64,000 nt of DNA from Cryptosporangium arvum DSM 44712 (lineage in GTDB: Bacteria; Actinomycetota; Actinomycetes; Mycobacteriales; Cryptosporangiaceae). Below, piece after piece: positions 4,099 to 37,757 of this stretch. The stretch spans positions 3,658,001-3,722,000 of the forward strand of contig NZ_KK073874.1 of assembly GCF_000585375.1 (NCBI RefSeq), read 5' to 3'. The position numbers were made by a program, and so were the translations under genes. Under the pieces are notes generated by a model, which did no database searches, had not been told where the DNA came from, and worked only from the letters and a program-made list of their open reading frames with translations. Within the stretch, counting starts at the first letter, position 1, and each line of letters begins with the position of its first letter.

Positions 4099-5532
4099 GT
4101 GTTCGATCCGCTGGAACACCCCGGTATCCCGGTCGGCCACCGTCGCCGGCACTGGCGCGAATTCGACGTCGAGCCGGTTGACCCGCGCGCGACCGACCCG
4201 TACACCCGCTGCCGGATCAGGATGGGAGCGGTCGTCGAAGCGACTGCCGAGCTCTTCGACCGGCAGTTCGCCGACCACGTCCGAGGCGCCGACGAACATC
4301 GGGTGGTGAGCAGACTGGGTGACGCGGCCGCCGAGCGGCGCCGGCACGCCACGGCGGCACGGGCAGTGCCCCGTAGCGCGGTGGAGGAGGCGATGGACCG
4401 CGAATGGGCGGCGTTCGACCTGGCCGGTTGGGCGGCTCGCAACGAGTGCGAGCCGGACCGGTCGACGGCGTACCGGCAGGAGGCGTGGCAGCACCTCGAG
4501 CGCCTGCACCGCTACACCGGGTTCGGTGCCCGCGCGCGCCTACCCGGCGCCGATCAGATCGCCGACGAGGTGCAGGGGTTGTCCCTCCCACCGGTGGTCA
4601 CCGCGCCGGCCGACAGCCGGCCACCCTCCGCCCCGGTGACGCAGCCGCTGTCCCTGCTGCACGACTGGATGATGCACGCCGCCGGTCGATCGGCCGCCGG
4701 GTTCCGGGCCGGGTCTTCCGACGCCGGCTGGGCAGCGCTGGTGGTGAACGAGTCGGCGAACTGTTATCTGTACTACGGGTTCCTGGCCGAAGAGGACGAC
4801 CGGCGGCTGCGGCCGGTGTGGGAGCTCCAGTTGCAGATGCGGCTGACGCGGCTGCACGCGGCGTCGGACCTGCTGCGTCGGTACGGCGGTCGCGACCCGC
4901 AGGAGGTGATCGGTGAGGGCCTGCCCGAGCCGCTGAGTCTGCGGACCGACCGGTCGTCGCTCCCGGCCGACGAGCCGGATGCCCTTCGACCTCCCGACCG
5001 GGACCAGGATCGGAAGGGACCGGACGTGTTGGAGCTGCTGACCGGGCACCACGACCGGATGAAGCGGTTGTGCGGCCGAGCCGCCCGATCGGCTCGGGAC
5101 GACGCATACGTGGCGTTCGGCGAGCTGGCCCGGTTGATCACGCTGCACGAGATCGCGGAGGAGCAGATGCTCCACCCGCTCGTCCGGCGGTTGCGGCCCG
5201 ACGACCAGTTGGTCGACCATCTGCTCGACGAAGAGAGCCGGATCAGCGACGCGCTGTCCGACGCGGTACGCGCCGCCGCCCACGGCCACCTCGACGACAC
5301 GATCGGCGGCCTGCGCGAGATGGTGACCGCCCACGCCCGTTGCGAGGAGCACCACGAGTTCCCGCAGCTCCGTAGCAGCGTGCCGGTGCCGGAGCGCAGG
5401 GAGATGGGCCGCGCGGTTCGCGCGGCCGAGGCAGCGGACGCCGAAGCGGGACCGCCGGATCCGGAGCCGGTCGGCCCGCGGGCCTTGGCGCAGACGGTGG
5501 AACGCGTACGCGACGCGTTCGCCGGCCGCTAG
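4099..5532 (+). CDS. Large protein with C-terminal hemerythrin (HHE) domain
   Basis: This 477-residue protein carries a hemerythrin-like four-helix domain at about 309-445. It shows the spaced ligands of the diiron site: [39 protein letters not shown], then [14 protein letters not shown]. Such domains bind oxygen or NO, or sense iron and redox state. The N-terminal 300 residues are mainly helical, include [18 protein letters not shown] and match no family I can name. GTG 4099 was chosen because GGAGGAG lies 6 bases upstream; an upstream start at 4033 has no such site. It is divergent from dnaK across palindrome site A and ends flush against the convergent zinc-finger gene. Confidence 0.8.
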
Positions 5533-30682: not shown

Positions 30683-31258
30683 TCACGCGGGAGAGTCCTC
30701 CACCTTTGGGGATTCCGCTGAGACGGTCACGGTCCCTGCCCCGGTCGGTCGAACCAGGGCAAGAGCCCGCCCCTGGAACGTCAGGTGATGGGCGTCGCCG
30801 AAGGGCAGCTCGTTGTCAGGGCGACCGCTGCCCAGGGCTTGAAGGACCGCGTGACCGGCAACGGCAACGTGAACTTCGCGGTCGCCGGCGGTGTGCAGGA
30901 CGCCGTTCCCTTCCGTCAGACGGATGGTGACGTAAGCAAGGTCGGTGTCGTCTGGCGGATGACCGAGCGGTCGACCTCGACGTAGGCGATAGCCGTCACG
31001 TCCCCCCGTCGCCGGTGATGTCCTGGTCTCCGGACCAGGCCGCGATCCACGGGTAGGGGGCCTCGAAGACCGGCATTTTGTCGGCGTAGTGCACCCGGTC
31101 GATGCCGACTTCCCCAAGGTGGTCCCAACCCGTCCAGGTGAAATCTCGGATGACGTGCGGGTTGTCCTCGACGAGACGCCAGAAGCGGGCGATGCCGGGG
31201 GGAAATATTTCGCTGCCGACGATGACACGATTCGGAAGGGTTCTCTTCGCGGTTCGTG
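30683..31258 (-). pseudogene. GH2 beta-galactosidase, C-terminal fragment
   Basis: The minus strand reads RVIVGSEIFPPGIARFWRLV, DNPHVIRDFTWTGWDHLGEV and, in a shifted frame, DTDLAYVTIRLTEGNGVLHT and LALVRPTGAGTVTVSAE with a stop at 30683. This is the distal part of a GH2 glycosidase. The matching N-terminal part lies 5.5 kb away at 36814-37757 in the same orientation. Two mobile elements separate the halves, and several frameshifts show long decay. Confidence 0.75.
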
Positions 31259-31315
31259 GGTTCTGGCTCGAATTGTGTGACGGGCTTGCTGTGCTCCCGG
31301 CGCTATCGTGACGGC

Positions 31316-31606
31316 GTGATCGATCTGCAGGTGCGGGGCGAGTCCGGGCAGGTCCTGGCACGCGCGCGAGGCTTTGAGTGGACTCAGGAACTGATCGATC
31401 TTGATCGTGCAGAGTTTCCGATGCTGGCAGGGCTCTGTGCGTTCTCGGACACCGTGTTCAACTGGCGGCAAGTCCCCATGCTCCTCAATGACCTGCAGCG
31501 GCTGCCAGACGGTGTGATTCCGGAACCGGCCTGTGCGGCGATCCGCGAGTTCGCGGCAACGGTTGAAGAGGGATCGCACCTGTATTTGTGGTTCGTCGGA
31601 GACTGA
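31316..31606 (+). CDS. Passenger protein of the ISL3 element, unknown function
   Basis: A 96-residue acidic protein from GTG 31316: IDLQVRGESGQVLARARGFE, then FSDTVFNWRQVPMLLNDLQR and GSHLYLWFVGD. It lies inside the ISL3 inverted repeats and converges on the transposase, ending 20 bases from it. No family is recognised. It could be an independent accessory gene carried by the element. The ribosome site is weak. Confidence 0.55.
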   Translation: MIDLQVRGESGQVLARARGFEWTQELIDLDRAEFPMLAGLCAFSDTVFNWRQVPMLLNDLQRLPDGVIPEPACAAIREFAATVEEGSHLYLWFVGD

Positions 31607-31625
31607 GCCGGCTGGGGGTCGGCCG

Positions 31626-33224
31626 TCATCGGGCGAGCAGCACCCGCTTGCGGAGGAGGTCGAAGCGGGCGCGGCCATACATCTGTCGTTTGATCATCTT
31701 GATCCGGTTGACGTTGCCCTCGACCGGCCCGGAGTTGTGCGGCTGGCTCAGGCCTGCCGTGACCGCGGCCAGATCGTTGGTCAAGCTGGTGGCGAAGCGC
31801 GCGATCGGCGACGGCGCGGAGGCCTGGGCCGAGGCGATCCACGTGCCGAGCCGGTGTCCGTGCAGGTGGGTGAGCATGTCCGCGAAGGATCGCACCAGCT
31901 CGGCGGCGGTGTTCAGTTCAGGGCATCGCTCGAGGATCGCCTGGAGACGCTGGCTGTCGTGTTCAACCAGGTTGTCGGGGTGTCGGCAGATCCAGCCGGT
32001 CACCTCTCGCACCGACGCCGGCCGCCGCACCCGCTCCAGGTCGGGCTTCATGCGGTGCTGTTCGACGAAGGCTCGGACGATTCCGTAGCCGCCGGTGAAG
32101 CCCTGCGTGGTGACTTCGCGGTGCAGTCGGGTGGCGCGCAGACAGCCCTGATCGATGCGTTCACGCAGGTAGGGGATGAAGGGGTCGAGGAGGCTGGGCC
32201 GTGGTTTCTGGCCGACCATCAGCTCCTGCCAGGCTTTGGCGTGCGCATACCGGGCCACTGTTCGTTGACTCCAGCCCAGATGCTCCGCGATCTGCCGGAA
32301 ACTCGCGCCCTGGGCGACGAGGTCGTGGACAAGCGCGTGGTTGGCCTTGCGGCGATCGGCCATCGCTCCGGTCGGCTCGGTGGCGGGTGACCTGGAGGTC
32401 TCGGCAGCCGGGACAGCGGGCTCTTCCAGGCACCTCTTGTGTCCGATGACGGTGCGTTCGACCGCCGTGGCGAGGTTCTGCCACAGGTGGAAACGGTCAG
32501 CGACCTGTTGCGCCTCGGGTGCCCCGGTGGCGGCGCCTTCGGCATAGGCGGTGGCCCTGTCCCGGCAGATCACCACCGGTTTCGGGTGCGCCTGCAGCCA
32601 CTCAGCGAGTGGGTCGGCGTCCCTGCCGAGCAGCAGGTCGATGGCTTTCCCGGTCTGGCAGTCGACCAGCACGGTGCCGTAGTGATGGCCGCGTTTGACC
32701 GCGTAGTCATCGACCCCCAGGACCGTCACCGGACTCACCGGACTCACCGGCGGATCCGGTAAGCCTCTGACCAGCCGAAGCAGGCTATGACGGCTGACTG
32801 GCATCCCTAACACGGCGGTCAGACGAGCTCCGGCTCGACCAGCCAGCGCCAGCCCGACCGCGGTCAGCATCCGCCGCAAACTGTCGGTGCAGCGCGCCCA
32901 CCGGCGCGTCAACCCGGCGACCTGCTCGACGAAGGTCTTCTTCTCGCAGGCGGTGTTCTCGCAGAAGAACCGGCGCACCCGCAGCCAGATCTGAGTGGAC
33001 CGACCGGCCGTCGGCGCGTCGGCGATCCTGCGCCGATACCGGGAATGCACCCGCGTCGAGGACGCGGTGCATCCTGGACACTCGGCACGCTGTCCACGAA
33101 CTCCGGCGGCCAACAGCACTCCGGACTCGCCGCCGACCACCTCGTCGATCTCGATCCCAGCCAAATGAGGCAGCAACTCCTGAGCGGCTTCACACCGCTG
33201 GACAACGAGCCACGACCGCTTCAA
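31626..33224 (-). CDS. ISL3-family transposase
   Basis: This 532-residue protein has an N-terminal zinc finger (CPGCTASSTRVHSRY, then CENTACEKKTF). The DDE core includes VTVLGVDDYAVKRGHHYGTV, CRDRATAYAEGA and a final Glu in HNSGPVEGNVNRIKMIKRQM. A helix-turn-helix insert (SFRQIAEHLGWSQRTVARYA) is typical of long ISL3 members. Full length and undamaged. It fills the element up to its right inverted repeat. Confidence 0.93.
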   Translation of the reverse strand: MKRSWLVVQRCEAAQELLPHLAGIEIDEVVGGESGVLLAAGVRGQRAECPGCTASSTRVHSRYRRRIADAPTAGRSTQIWLRVRRFFCENTACEKKTFVEQVAGLTRRWARCTDSLRRMLTAVGLALAGRAGARLTAVLGMPVSRHSLLRLVRGLPDPPVSPVSPVTVLGVDDYAVKRGHHYGTVLVDCQTGKAIDLLLGRDADPLAEWLQAHPKPVVICRDRATAYAEGAATGAPEAQQVADRFHLWQNLATAVERTVIGHKRCLEEPAVPAAETSRSPATEPTGAMADRRKANHALVHDLVAQGASFRQIAEHLGWSQRTVARYAHAKAWQELMVGQKPRPSLLDPFIPYLRERIDQGCLRATRLHREVTTQGFTGGYGIVRAFVEQHRMKPDLERVRRPASVREVTGWICRHPDNLVEHDSQRLQAILERCPELNTAAELVRSFADMLTHLHGHRLGTWIASAQASAPSPIARFATSLTNDLAAVTAGLSQPHNSGPVEGNVNRIKMIKRQMYGRARFDLLRKRVLLAR

Positions 33225-33373
33225 TCACACTCTTTGAGCCAGAACCGGTTCGTGACCGCGTTTGTTCGTGAGTTCTGACCGCAGTCCTCGGCCGCCGCTT
33301 TGATGCTCGTGAGTTTTGACCGCGGTTGAACGGTTGCGTTACCACCTTCGGTGTGCCTCGGTAAGGAGCGTCG

Positions 33374-34842
33374 ATGGCGGTCTCGAAGGTCGAGTTATAC
33401 GCCGCGATCCGTCGTGATGCTCGGACGGGGATGTCGGGCCGGGCGTTGGAGCGCAAGTACAACGTCGGGCGCCGCACGATCGTGAAGGCGATCGCGTCCG
33501 CGTGGTCGGAGCCACGCAAAGCGTTGCCGCGGCGGGCGTCGAGGCTCGATCCGTTCAACCGTTCATCGAGGACGTGCTCCGCGCGGATCTGGACGCGCCG
33601 CGCAAGCAGCGGCACACGGTCAAGCGCCTGGTCGACCGGCTGATCGCCGAACAGGGCAGCAGGTGACCTGCTCCTGTTCGCGTTCCGGCTGTCGTTCTCC
33701 GGCAAAGCAGTCCATCGGGTGTTCGCCTCTGGCGGGCAAGAGGCGTTCTTCGAGGGCCACGCCCACGCACTGCAGGCGCTGGGTGGGGTGCCATTCGGAC
33801 AGGTCCGCTATGACAACTTGAAAGCGCGGTCGCTCAGGTCTTGGGCTTCAACCGGGCACGCGTGGAGACCGAACGCTGGACGGCGTTTCGCTCCCACTAC
33901 GGCTTGGAGGCCTTCTACTGCCGGCCTGGCATCGACGGCGCGCACGAGAAGGGCGGAGTCGAGGGCCAGATCGGCTACTTCCGCCGCAACCACCTCGTCC
34001 CCGTGCCCGACGTCGACTCGTTCACGGAACTCAACGCGCAGATCGACCGATGGGACCTCGATGACGAGGCCCGTCGGATCGGCTCCCGCCCCCGCACCGT
34101 CGGCGACCTGTTCGCCATCGAGAAGCCGCTGCTCAAGCCGCTACCGGTCGAGGACTTCGAGACCGGCCGCTGGTTCACCCCACGGGTCGACCGATTCGCG
34201 CAGATCACCGTCCGCACCAACCGCTATTCGGTGCCGGTCCGGCTGATCGGCCGCCGCGTCCGCGTCCTGCTCCACGCCTCGGAGATGGTCATCTACGACG
34301 GCCGGACCGAGGTTGCCCGGCACGAGCGGCTGATGGCCAAGTCCGCGACCTGCCTGGAGTTAGATCACTACTTGGAAGCGCTAGTTCGCAAAGCCGGCGC
34401 ACTGCCTGGAGCAACCGCGCTCGAGCAGGCTCGCTCGGCCGGAAAGTTCACCCCAGTTCATGACGCGTGGTGGGACGCTGCGCGCCGAGCCCATGGGTCC
34501 ACCGTCGGAACGAAGGCACTGATCGAGGTCCTTCTGCTGCACCGGCACCTGGCGCACGAGCACGTCGTCACCGGTCTGGCCGCCGCTCTGCGCGCCGGTG
34601 CTCTCACCGCGGACGCCGTTGCCCTTGAAGCGCGGAAGGCCGCCGAGACCGACGAGCACGTCGACGCCGGCATCGCGACCGCGATGGCAGACGGGTCGAA
34701 GCCCGCAGCGGTGGTGTCCTCGCTGACCGAACGCCGGCTACGCGCTCTGCCCGCCGACTCGCGGCCACTGCCGTCGGTCGCTGCTTACGACCAGCTCCTG
34801 ACCCGCACACCGCGCAGAGCAGCTCCCGGCGCAGCCACCTGA
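33374..34842 (+). pseudogene. istA: istA transposase of IS21 type, deleted and frameshifted
   Basis: The start (VSKVELYAAIRRDARTGMSG, an HTH, GRRTIVKAIASAW) breaks near 33520. A short block LLFAFRLSFSGKAVHRVFAS follows, and from 33841 the rest continues intact (NRARVETERWTAFRSHYGLE to EKGGVEGQIGYFRRNHLVP and beyond). The stretch with the first catalytic Asp, about 60 residues, is missing, so the protein cannot transpose the element. Stop at 34842. Confidence 0.8.
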
Positions 34843-34855
34843 AGGGAACTCCGTC

Positions 34856-35610
34856 ATGACTACCACTCGCCACCGCGGCCTGACCGAACAAGCCGCCGAC
34901 GCCGCGGTCGACCAGGCCTGCCGGATGCTGCGGCTGCCCACCATCCGCACCGAGTTCCCCGACATCGCCGAAGCCGCGGCCCGCGAGCAGATGTCCTACC
35001 GGGCGTACCTCGCCGAACTGCTGATGGCCGAGTGCGACGACCGGGCCCGCCGACGCTCTGACCGCCGCATCAAAGCTGCCGCGTTCCCGCGCGAGAAATC
35101 GCTACGCACCTTCGACTACGACGCCAACCCGAACACCGATCCGGCGGTCATCCACACTCTCGCGGCCGGAGAGGTGACTCCGGGACCGGGAAGTCCCATC
35201 TGCTCATCGCGCTGGGCACCGAAGCGGCGTTGCAGGGACACCGCGTCCGCTACACCCTCGCGACGAAGCTGGTGAACGAGCTGGTCGAGGCCGCCGACGA
35301 GAAACACCTGGCCAAGACCATCGCCCGCTACGGCCGCGTCGACCTTTTATGCATCGACGAACTCGGCTACATGGAACTCGACCGGCGCGGCGCCGAACTG
35401 CTCTTCCAAGTCCTGACCGAACGGGAGGAGAAGAACTCCATTGCGATCGCCTCCAATGAGTCGTTCAGCGGCTGGACCAAGACCTTCACCGACCCGAGGC
35501 TCTGCGCCGCGATCGTCGACCGGCTCACCTTCGGCGGCAACATCATCGAAACCGGCACCGACTCCTACCGGCTCGCTCGAAGCAAAGCCCGTGCCGACTC
35601 GCCAGCCTGA
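34856..35610 (+). pseudogene. istB: istB ATPase of IS21 type, frameshifted at the P-loop
   Basis: It begins MTTTRHRGLTEQAADAAVDQ and runs to AKTL-like FPREKSLRTFDYDANPN. A deletion and frameshift fall just before the Walker A (GDSGTGKSHLLIA readable in another frame near 35172). From 35230 the frame continues GHRVRYTLATKLVNELVEAA, LLCIDELGYMEL and SFSGWTKTFTDP. The ATPase motif is therefore split and the gene is inactive. Confidence 0.8.
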
Positions 35611-35754
35611 GCTGGTCTCTAAGGGCGAGTCGCTGCTGGCACTCTGCGGTCTCCTGCCCTGGAATTAGTGTCATCAGCCTGACACGCATCAGCGTTCGCT
35701 GACCTCGGGCAGAGCTGTCGTTGCCGACCGGTGATCGGCTGCGAAGGGAGCACG

Positions 35755-36681
35755 GTGAGCGGAACGCTGAAGATCGACTGGCGAGACGGTGAGCACGGGA
35801 TTTGGGTGGTGCCGCGAGAGCCATGGACGCCTGCGCATACCCAGCGGTTCATCGAACTCGGCGCTGCCGGCCTGAGCCTCGGCGCTGCTGGATGGCGCGC
35901 CGCGACTCACGAGACCAGCGTCGCCTTTCTTCGCGACCTCGTCGGTTTGAGGCATCTGCTCGTGATGCCGATGGAGGGCGAGCACGATTGGTCGGTGCTC
36001 GGCGAGTTGCCCCACTTGGAGACCCTCTGGCTCGATATCCCCGGCCTGAAACCGATCCCAGATCTGGAGCGCCTGACCGCTATCCGCCGGCTGATCCTGG
36101 AATGGCATCCTGGGCAGGAACAGCTCTTGATGTCGATCCCGCCGCTGGCCGAGTTGGGAATCGTGCGGTGGGGATTGGCCGACCTCACAGCACTCACCAC
36201 CCACCTCACGACACTCCAGCAGCTGCACCTGACCTCCGCGCGGCGAATAACCAGCCTCGGAGACCTCGAACCAGCGACCACCCTGGAATCGTTGCGCCTG
36301 ACCTACTGCACGCGCCTGAACACCTTGGAACCACTCTCACAGCTGACCGGGCTGCGTCGTCTGGCCATCGATCGCTGCGGGAAACTCTCCGACTTCTCCG
36401 CGCTGGGCACTCTGCGCAACCTGCGCGCCCTCGAACTCGCCAACACCACGATCGACGACCTCGACGCCCTCCGCGGCCTACCCGACCTTGAGTATCTGTC
36501 CATCGACGGCAACGTCCGATCCGGCGACCTCTCGCCGCTCCTCGCCCTACCAGCGCTGCGCATCCTGTTCTTCCAGAACCGGAAGCACTACAGCCACCGC
36601 GTCACCGAGATCCAGGAAGCGCTCGGCCTCGACCCGGCCGCCTATCCCGAGCCCGGCCTTCGCTCCGAAGAAATCAAGTAG
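35755..36681 (+). CDS. Leucine-rich-repeat protein carried inside the IS21 element
   Basis: This 308-residue protein has an N-terminal cap with GIWVVPREPWTPAHT. About eight leucine-rich repeats follow (LPHLETLWLDIPGLKPIPDL; LTGLRRLAIDRCGKLSDFSA; LRNLRALELANTTIDDLDAL; LPDLEYLSIDG). There is no signal peptide or membrane span, so it is likely cytosolic and protein-binding. GTG 35755 follows AAGGGAG. It is undamaged although both transposition genes beside it are broken. Function is unknown. Confidence 0.82.
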   Translation: MSGTLKIDWRDGEHGIWVVPREPWTPAHTQRFIELGAAGLSLGAAGWRAATHETSVAFLRDLVGLRHLLVMPMEGEHDWSVLGELPHLETLWLDIPGLKPIPDLERLTAIRRLILEWHPGQEQLLMSIPPLAELGIVRWGLADLTALTTHLTTLQQLHLTSARRITSLGDLEPATTLESLRLTYCTRLNTLEPLSQLTGLRRLAIDRCGKLSDFSALGTLRNLRALELANTTIDDLDALRGLPDLEYLSIDGNVRSGDLSPLLALPALRILFFQNRKHYSHRVTEIQEALGLDPAAYPEPGLRSEEIK

Positions 36682-36813
36682 AGCCCCCGCCTCCAAGCAC
36701 CCTTAGCCGGCGGAACACCTCCACCGCGGCCGTCGACCGCGGTCAAATCTGACAAACACTCACCTGCCAACCGGCCCTCAACCGCGGTCACGACTGACGA
36801 ACAAACACGGTCA

Positions 36814-37757
36814 CCTCTGGCAAGCGAAATCATCGGAAAGAGGTCCTTGTCGACCAGGTAGCTGGTTCATGAAATCGGCAGCGGAGTTCATGAGGTCGTT
36901 GACACCGCCACCGGCTGCTTCTTGCCCGCTGTCGCGTTGTCGGGTGGCGTTGGCCTGCATCATCTGGACGACGTCCAGGACGGAGACGAACCCGGTGATC
37001 CCGTCGAAGGTCTCGTCCGTGACGAGGACTCCGAGCCGGTCACAGGCATCGAGCATCGCTTGACTCATCGGGTCGTGAGAGCTGCGGATGGCATTGAAGC
37101 CGGCGGCTTTCAAGAGCTCGACGCGTCGCTCTTCCGCCCGGGCGATCGTGGCCGAGCCCAGGAGGCCGTTGTCGTGGTGAACGCACGCCCCGCGCAGTTT
37201 GACGGTCTCGCCGTTGATGCGAAGGCCCTTGATGGGGTCGAGCTGTAGGGCACGGATGCCGAGGCTCGTCTCGTGACGGTCAAGGACGTCGGCGTCATCG
37301 CGGAGGACGGAACGCGCGGTGTAGAGAGACGGCGAGTCCGGGCTCCACAGCGAGGCGTCCGTGGGGTGGACTCCCTGGTTCCGTCGTGGGGGATGTGTGT
37401 CAGGCCGGACACGATCAGTCGGGTGTCGCGATAGATTCCGGCTCCGGTGTACCAGCGTGAATCGTCGTGAGACCGCGCATCGACGCGGATGGTGTTCTGA
37501 TCGCCGTGACGAAGGAACGGGCTCTGGTCGACCACGAAGGTGGCGTAGCCCGACGGGCGTTGCGCGGCGAAGGTTCCGTTCACGAACACCATGGCGTCGC
37601 GGTACACGCCTTGGAACTCCGGGCGCACGACCTTGTCGTGGTAGGCCTGCGGAACGTCGAAGGTCACCGACGCGGGGGAGCGCTCTGCAACTGTGCGTAG
37701 GGGCTGACCTTGGGTCGGACGGTCCACGAGTCGTTGAAGGAGGTGATGCTCACGTCG
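36814..37757 (-). pseudogene. GH2 beta-galactosidase, N-terminal fragment
   Basis: The minus strand begins VSITSFNDSWTVRPKVSPYA near 37757. It continues in other frames with FDVPQAYHDKVVRPEFQGVY, RWYTGAGIYRDTRLIVSGLT, DASLWSPDSPSLYTARSVLR, KLRGACVHHDNGLLGSATIA and AAGFNAIRSSHDPMS, then NDLMNSAADFMNQL. There are at least three frameshifts and two internal deletions, including loss of the acid/base region after VTDETFDG. It ends at the IS21 right terminus. Its other half is at 30683-31258. Confidence 0.78.

Follow-up and report, generated by a model that had tools for sequence, protein, structure and literature searches.

An IS21-family element with a gene between istB and its right end

The window analysed here, a stretch of 64,000 nucleotides from Cryptosporangium arvum DSM 44712 (contig NZ_KK073874.1, positions 3,658,001 to 3,722,000), contains an insertion sequence (IS) of the IS21 family at positions 31238-36832. 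From left to right it comprises a left end that is interrupted by another IS, an istA pseudogene (33374-34842, plus strand; IS21 transposase), an istB pseudogene (34856-35610, plus strand; AAA+ helper), an intact gene for a leucine-rich repeat (LRR) protein of 308 amino acids (35755-36681, plus strand) and a right end (36733-36832, minus strand). It is very probably a decayed member of a group of actinobacterial IS21 elements that often carry a single host-type cargo gene in a fixed slot, which extends from the istB stop codon to the right terminal repeat. This reading is built, at the level of sequence, on the borders of the element, its target duplication, the position of the cargo, the varied genes found in the same slot of relatives and a cargo-bearing relative present as twin copies in one genome.

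The outer part of the left end (31238-31258, plus strand) starts at the tip, with 19 nucleotides to TGACCG as at the right end, whose tip is position 36832; the remainder (33247-33340, plus strand) holds terminal-repeat units at 33263-33285 and 33304-33326, and the right end holds units at 36733-36758 and 36778-36803. The inverted-repeat arms at 33252-33294 and 36772-36814 (43 nucleotides) are 79% complementary, and additional copies lie at 33304-33329 and 36733-36758. The best alignment of the two ends, spanning about 90 nucleotides, reaches a score of 70, whereas controls do not exceed 47. Each tip lies 19 nucleotides outside the first TGACCG and is bordered by the 6-bp sequence TCGGAA (31232-31237 on the left, 36833-36838 on the right), the target-site duplication; the first base of the left tip is G instead of T. 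The probability of a chance match of TCGGAA is 1/4096 if the tips are fixed beforehand, an optimistic figure since tips and duplication were spotted together. Target duplications of IS21 elements measure 4-8 bp, and the element combines such a short duplication with an IstA-type transposase, an IstB-type helper and multi-unit terminal repeats, as expected of the family.

A preliminary description of this locus had proposed that an IS21 element here encloses an LRR passenger, which the end repeats, the IS21 domains and the TCGGAA copy beyond the LRR gene bear out; the gene does lie between istB and the right terminal repeats, and on sequence grounds it is a passenger of the element. The limits then proposed, 33253-36813, are not the tips, the left one being located past the inserted IS. 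The same description had itself named, as an outcome that would speak against it, a right repeat belonging to an unrelated element; the LRR gene would then be a host gene caught between two elements. The end repeats are indeed tandem and degenerate, but the match of the ends over about 90 nucleotides above controls, the equal 19-nucleotide spacing from tip to unit and the presence of TCGGAA on both sides assign the right repeat to the same element and make this alternative extremely improbable.

The IS inside the left end is an ISL3-family element of 1988 bp (31259-33246, minus strand), whose transposase open reading frame (ORF; 31626-33224, minus strand) matches DDE_Tnp_ISL3 and which carries its own 8-bp duplication, GGTTCGTG, with the left copy at 31251-31258 and the right copy at 33247-33254. 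A second ISL3 copy (L023, about 314-2303; G000:C1, about 3894313-3896302; loci are designated L throughout) is located at the same GGTTCGTG site of another IS21 left end of this genome, in the opposite orientation, and the pair may reflect either a hot spot or flipping. IS21 relics elsewhere in the genome comprise a gene-less left end (L023, 2309-2419) and an istB tail (L024, 3122-3218). Immediately to the right of the IS21 element lie pieces of a GH2 glycosidase pseudogene (36839-37727, minus strand; Pfam Glyco_hydro_2_N and Glyco_hydro_2_C), and a C-terminal piece to the left of 31232 was recognised by eye only and has no Pfam match; the element appears to have landed beside or within this pseudogene.

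Delimitation of related elements

An istA fragment led to 29 loci in the named genomes, and 11 plasmid records were taken from the 40 listed among 1578 matches. With a full istA at E 1e-100, the class sample of 394 genomes gave matches in 28, own genome included, and 28 of the 31 matches were retrieved. A related istA at E 1e-180 gave matches in 24 of the 246 genomes sampled from a single genus, of which 20 out of 28 matches were retrieved. We scanned 78 related actinobacterial loci for paired ends with a duplication of at least 5 bp, and a locus was regarded as delimited when its score exceeded the best of 12 reversed-sequence controls by more than 4. Excluded before counting were L045, L113, L114 and L115 (no istB found), L112 (too short) and L049-L053 (fragments). 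Among the 78 rows, three loci are entered twice (L034/L154, L036/L088, L038/L155) and one element occurs in two of the named genomes (L025/L026); all of these are outside the delimited set; L026, L040, L042, L104 and L110 were flagged as significant in the scan, fail the rule of more than 4 and are not counted.

By this rule 28 of the 78 loci are delimited, 26 of them with the right tip 536-2600 bp past istB; L097 and L108 have short tails (107 and 60 bp, respectively). In the window element, delimited by hand, the distance from istB to the right tip is 1222 bp. Outside the count, the ends alone score above controls with cargo-size gaps in L030, L034, L090, L102 and L104, and without such a gap in L027 (46 against 44 for the control).

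Contents of the slot

ORFs from 22 of the 26 slots, some ORFs per slot, were compared with Pfam (L098, L172 and L179 were left out, and L157 is the twin of L156). Fifteen of the 22 slots gave a family above the curated cut-off, and in 14 the gene so named is unrelated to transposition; the families include an FAD monooxygenase with a TetR regulator, DUF1801, two glyoxalases, YdjC, TetR beside an unnamed protein, TauE, SUKH, DAO, an FMN-dehydrogenase fragment, HAD, a methyltransferase, APH and a mycothiol-S-transferase. In L094 the only family named is that of an inserted transposase, three further slots gave sub-threshold GNAT or S1 matches, and four gave no match. Most slots hold an open coding frame, and the cargo genes occur in either orientation.

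The slot of L029 (6950-8803) contains two genes on opposite strands, the FAD monooxygenase and the TetR regulator, and looks like a mobile detoxification pair. An ORF of about 90 codons follows istB in L086 (5789-6052), L087 (5801-6082) and, similar by eye, L025; in the mycobacterial L086 and L087 it shares DHPGYD..LLIDQISFTAHALR, and it could be a third gene of the element. GC hairpins were considered as a capture site: those of at least 13 pairs follow istB or precede the right end in 8 elements out of 25, against 2 of 300 shuffled controls, and the window element has none at either position. Long GC hairpins directly behind istB or close to the right end, which are possibly terminators instead, were recorded in the slots of L033, L034, L035, L048, L085, L096, L158, L175, L179 and L180.

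Movement and exchange of the cargo

IstA and IstB act on the ends of IS21 elements and recognise the outer ones, so that the content of the slot travels as part of the element, as sequences indicate for relatives and as we infer for the LRR gene. L156 and L157 are two copies of one cargo-bearing element in a single genome, with one mismatch in 3588 bp, different flanks and different target duplications (CGGTTG and GATGCT), which indicates that in these relatives the passenger moves with the element.

Exchange of the cargo was assessed in 42 pairs (32 elements) whose istAB sequences are at least 90% identical. In 34 of the pairs homology stops between -39 and +4 nucleotides of the istB stop, in 23 of these at 0 to +4; four others share the downstream gene, and four break at +60 to +115. 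This count leaves out L026, L088, L154, L155 and L157 as duplicates or twins, and L041, in which istB is split by an insertion (with L041 there are 49 pairs). One or both partners of many pairs lack a delimited right end; delimitation on both sides was obtained for L096/L179 and L085/L175. In several swapped pairs homology resumes over 65-176 nucleotides at the right end, and a right-end module of about 95 nucleotides is, by eye, conserved among the relatives. Shared neutral flanking DNA should still align at such distances, because the synonymous divergence (dS) of istB in the swapped pair L034/L035 is only 0.37 over 160 codons; since homology nevertheless stops near the istB stop, the slot looks modular.

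These observations invite a broader proposal, in which a broad actinobacterial IS21 group would be a one-gene cassette transposon whose cargo, flanked by two conserved modules, is replaced as a unit, between a left junction at the istB stop and a right junction about 95 nucleotides before the tip, through recurrent precise exchange or capture, the LRR gene being one such load. We advance it tentatively and judge it somewhat less than an even prospect. In the main reading, cargo would be exchanged now and then by recombination or capture; homologous recombination between two copies would swap loads, not create them. Capture by way of a distal right end, with the old right end left buried inside the element, is unsupported as a general rule (3 of 25 slots). 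Also in the main reading, the LRR gene would have arrived with this IS21 element, which would later have died through the mutations in istA and istB and the ISL3 insertion.

IS elements are usually credited with their own transposition genes only, and this IS21 branch appears to be a small carrier of single bacterial genes; if so, it would provide a path, so far overlooked, by which single genes pass between actinomycetes. The loads of the delimited members differ widely and include an acetyltransferase, a phosphotransferase, a methyltransferase, a monooxygenase with a regulator, SUKH and the LRR protein. The capture step can be tested on closely related transposition modules that bear different loads, and for annotation we predict that in this IS21 group the gene next to istB often belongs to the element.

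Several points weigh against the reading of the window element as a member of a cargo-carrying group. A second element with the LRR gene was not found, so that transposition of the gene rests on a single copy, and the gene may have joined the slot only once the element was in place. With 50 of the 78 loci left undelimited by the scan, the frequency of cargo may be inflated. L089, L109 and L110, whose istAB are 99% identical, have 111-115 nucleotides behind istB in common before they diverge; the scan did not locate their ends, and the pattern fits what is expected of cargo-free elements. L027 and L095 also hint at such elements, at control level only. The 42 pairs are not independent, being drawn from 32 elements in a few clusters. 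An internal right-end-like sequence (p ≤0.05, uncorrected) is present only in L046, L092 and L100 among 25 slots (L157 left out). Finally, other IS21 elements offer only a thin contrast, suggestive rather than firm. Twelve control regions were fetched and nine analysed, eight non-actinobacterial and one from Microbacterium (L189, L191 and L197 were left out), with a script that accepted 4-bp duplications where the rule for the relatives was 5 bp. Under the 5-bp rule three of eight controls are delimited, at 53, 88 and 725 bp (L194) past istB; 4-bp duplications place the right end at 133 bp in L188 and 179 bp in L193, and the ends alone place it at 139 bp in L187 and 195 bp in L195. L192 gave +2854 bp (38 against 33, with a 4-bp duplication), a result that we doubt because its ends alone only equal the control. 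Six of the eight controls therefore point to a short tail (53-195 bp), whereas L194 and L192 do not.

Two of the control regions also have genes of note behind istB. The Methylobacterium element L194 may carry a pRiA4b ORF-3-like gene (4289-4918) as cargo in the same slot, in which case cargo would not be restricted to actinobacteria. In the Microbacterium region L198, whose ends are not delimited, a plasmid trpS gene (tryptophanyl-tRNA synthetase, 4265-5305) directly follows.

Decay of istA and istB and the question of selection

The istA pseudogene has its frame shifted near 33555 and again near 33825 and has lost about 60 codons near 33660, and the istB pseudogene has a deletion with frameshift near 35180, giving at least three disabling changes in istA and one in istB (exact places by reading of the sequence). 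The istA pieces match Mu-transpos_C_2 (2.5e-19) and transpos_IS21, and the istB pieces match IstB_IS21 (5.8e-32) and IS21_help_AAA. The preliminary description held that the LRR gene alone had escaped mutation, and took this as a possible sign of selection. The first statement is true of the three genes and statistically unremarkable: istA and istB of the intact relative L025 span 2411 bp, the LRR gene measures 927 bp (0.93 kb of 3.34 kb coding), and the chance that four random events all miss it is (2411/3338)^4, or P ~0.27. An intact LRR gene is on its own no evidence of selection at such a P, and as there is no orthologue on which a ratio of nonsynonymous to synonymous divergence (dN/dS) could rest, the second statement is unsupported.

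Selection for a defence or regulatory role, by which the host would have kept the LRR gene after the death of the element, is quite unlikely in our estimate. It would agree with an intact ORF and a plausible ribosome site next to broken istA and istB, and with the GNAT cargo shared by L035 and L047, whose dN/dS is 0.18 (dN 0.030, dS 0.166) even though L047 has its istA broken into several segments. The low ratio is not special to cargo, however, because istB of the same pair is lower still (0.056), and besides the missing orthologue and the P of ~0.27, searches for a sigma-70-like promoter (a test that covers actinomycete promoters poorly) and for PADLOC matches of the LRR protein were negative. 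A neutral course of events, in which a useless LRR gene was captured by chance and is intact merely since the decay is young, has a better claim and falls only a little short of being probable. The decay looks recent because the istA and istB fragments remain open apart from the indels, and the broad mixture of cargo functions agrees with such hitch-hiking; on the other side, most slots hold an open coding frame, not random DNA, and one shared cargo, the GNAT gene, is under purifying selection.

The LRR gene and its product

The LRR gene starts with GTG, directly preceded by AAGGGAG (by eye), and its stop codon ends at 36681; another in-frame GTG stands at 35731. An inverted repeat, GTGTCA..TGACAC (35668-35685), lies between istB and the gene and is operator-like by eye only. 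The protein contains an LRR domain (PF12799, E 4.4e-17), and an LRR fold is predicted for it from a four-row alignment with a mean predicted local distance difference test score of 81.6 and a predicted template-modelling (TM) score of 0.81. The ten best PDB matches of the model are internalin-type LRRs with TM scores of 0.42-0.62, which indicates fold, not function. PADLOC models gave 0 matches to the protein at E 0.01. Most likely the product is a protein-binding protein.

The preliminary description suggested a search for other IS21 copies with the same gene and conceded that LRR orthologues in a fixed chromosomal context would speak against its view. No such IS21 copy was found in the genome itself, where the LRR-bearing element is single, in the named genomes, in the family, class, order and phylum samples or on plasmids, and no such orthologues turned up in the samples searched, where matches are at most 45% identical (over 55 residues) and mostly partial. 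The named genomes, scanned with six exact peptide patterns that could miss distant relatives, yielded no confirmed close relative. Counting its own genome each time, LRR matches were obtained in 13 of 394 genomes of the class sample (E 1e-6, identity up to 39%), 4 of 397 of the order sample (E 1e-8), 2 of 396 of the phylum sample with a four-row profile (E 1e-15) and 2 of 5 of the family sample, the other family match being 45% identical over 55 residues (E 9.9e-4). Five plasmid records gave matches of at most 37% identity and 74% coverage. Three full-length relatives align at 27-29% identity, and tblastn detected no IS21 genes near the relatives L116-L121.

Two of these relatives suggest another explanation of the passenger, namely that it is an orphan immunity gene of the Imm-LRR class, whose product would bind and neutralise a toxin of related strains and whose benefit would keep cargo-bearing copies in the population. 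In L117 an ORF with a GIY-YIG domain and an RHS-like start (RHS by eye) is followed after 12 bp by a full-length LRR relative, and in L116 a relative and a SUFU gene are about 660 bp apart. The immunity classes given in PMC3482391 include Imm-LRR, Imm-SUFU, Imm-SUKH, Imm-HEAT and Imm-NTF2, and LRR immunity proteins are listed there for actinobacteria; SUKH is the cargo of L096, and HEAT (L161) and DUF4440 (L038) cargos occur in non-delimited relatives. Against this, only two of the four examined contexts fit, L118 and L181 being without such a neighbour among the genes checked (L119-L121 and L182-L184 are outside this count), the stretch of the window around the LRR gene shows no adjoining toxin or poly-immunity locus, identity to the relatives beside such genes is only 27-29%, and many other cargos are enzymes. 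We consider orphan immunity unlikely, assign this function to the LRR product with low confidence, and regard it as a lead, not a result.

Comparison with known systems

With IS21, IS712 and ISPst3 the window element has in common a Mu-type IstA, an AAA+ IstB, multi-unit ends, TG...CA tips and short target duplications. It differs from the non-actinobacterial members, whose right end follows istB within 53-195 bp in six of eight cases, in that its group has a gene in between. No description of an IS21 group with differing single cargo in one fixed slot was found in the literature searched (ISfinder and subscription reviews were beyond reach).

Integron gene cassettes are likewise single genes with a similar functional mix, forming changeable cargo beside a fixed recombinase module; the IS21 group, in contrast, has mostly one cargo per element, no integrase was seen in it, and a long GC hairpin is present in 8 of 25 elements only. 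The term transporter insertion sequence (tIS) is used for an IS with passenger genes (PMC9330008), and the window element likewise encloses, between IS ends, a gene unrelated to transposition. It belongs to an ordinary IS family with an unusual habit, and we would group it with the transporter insertion sequences.

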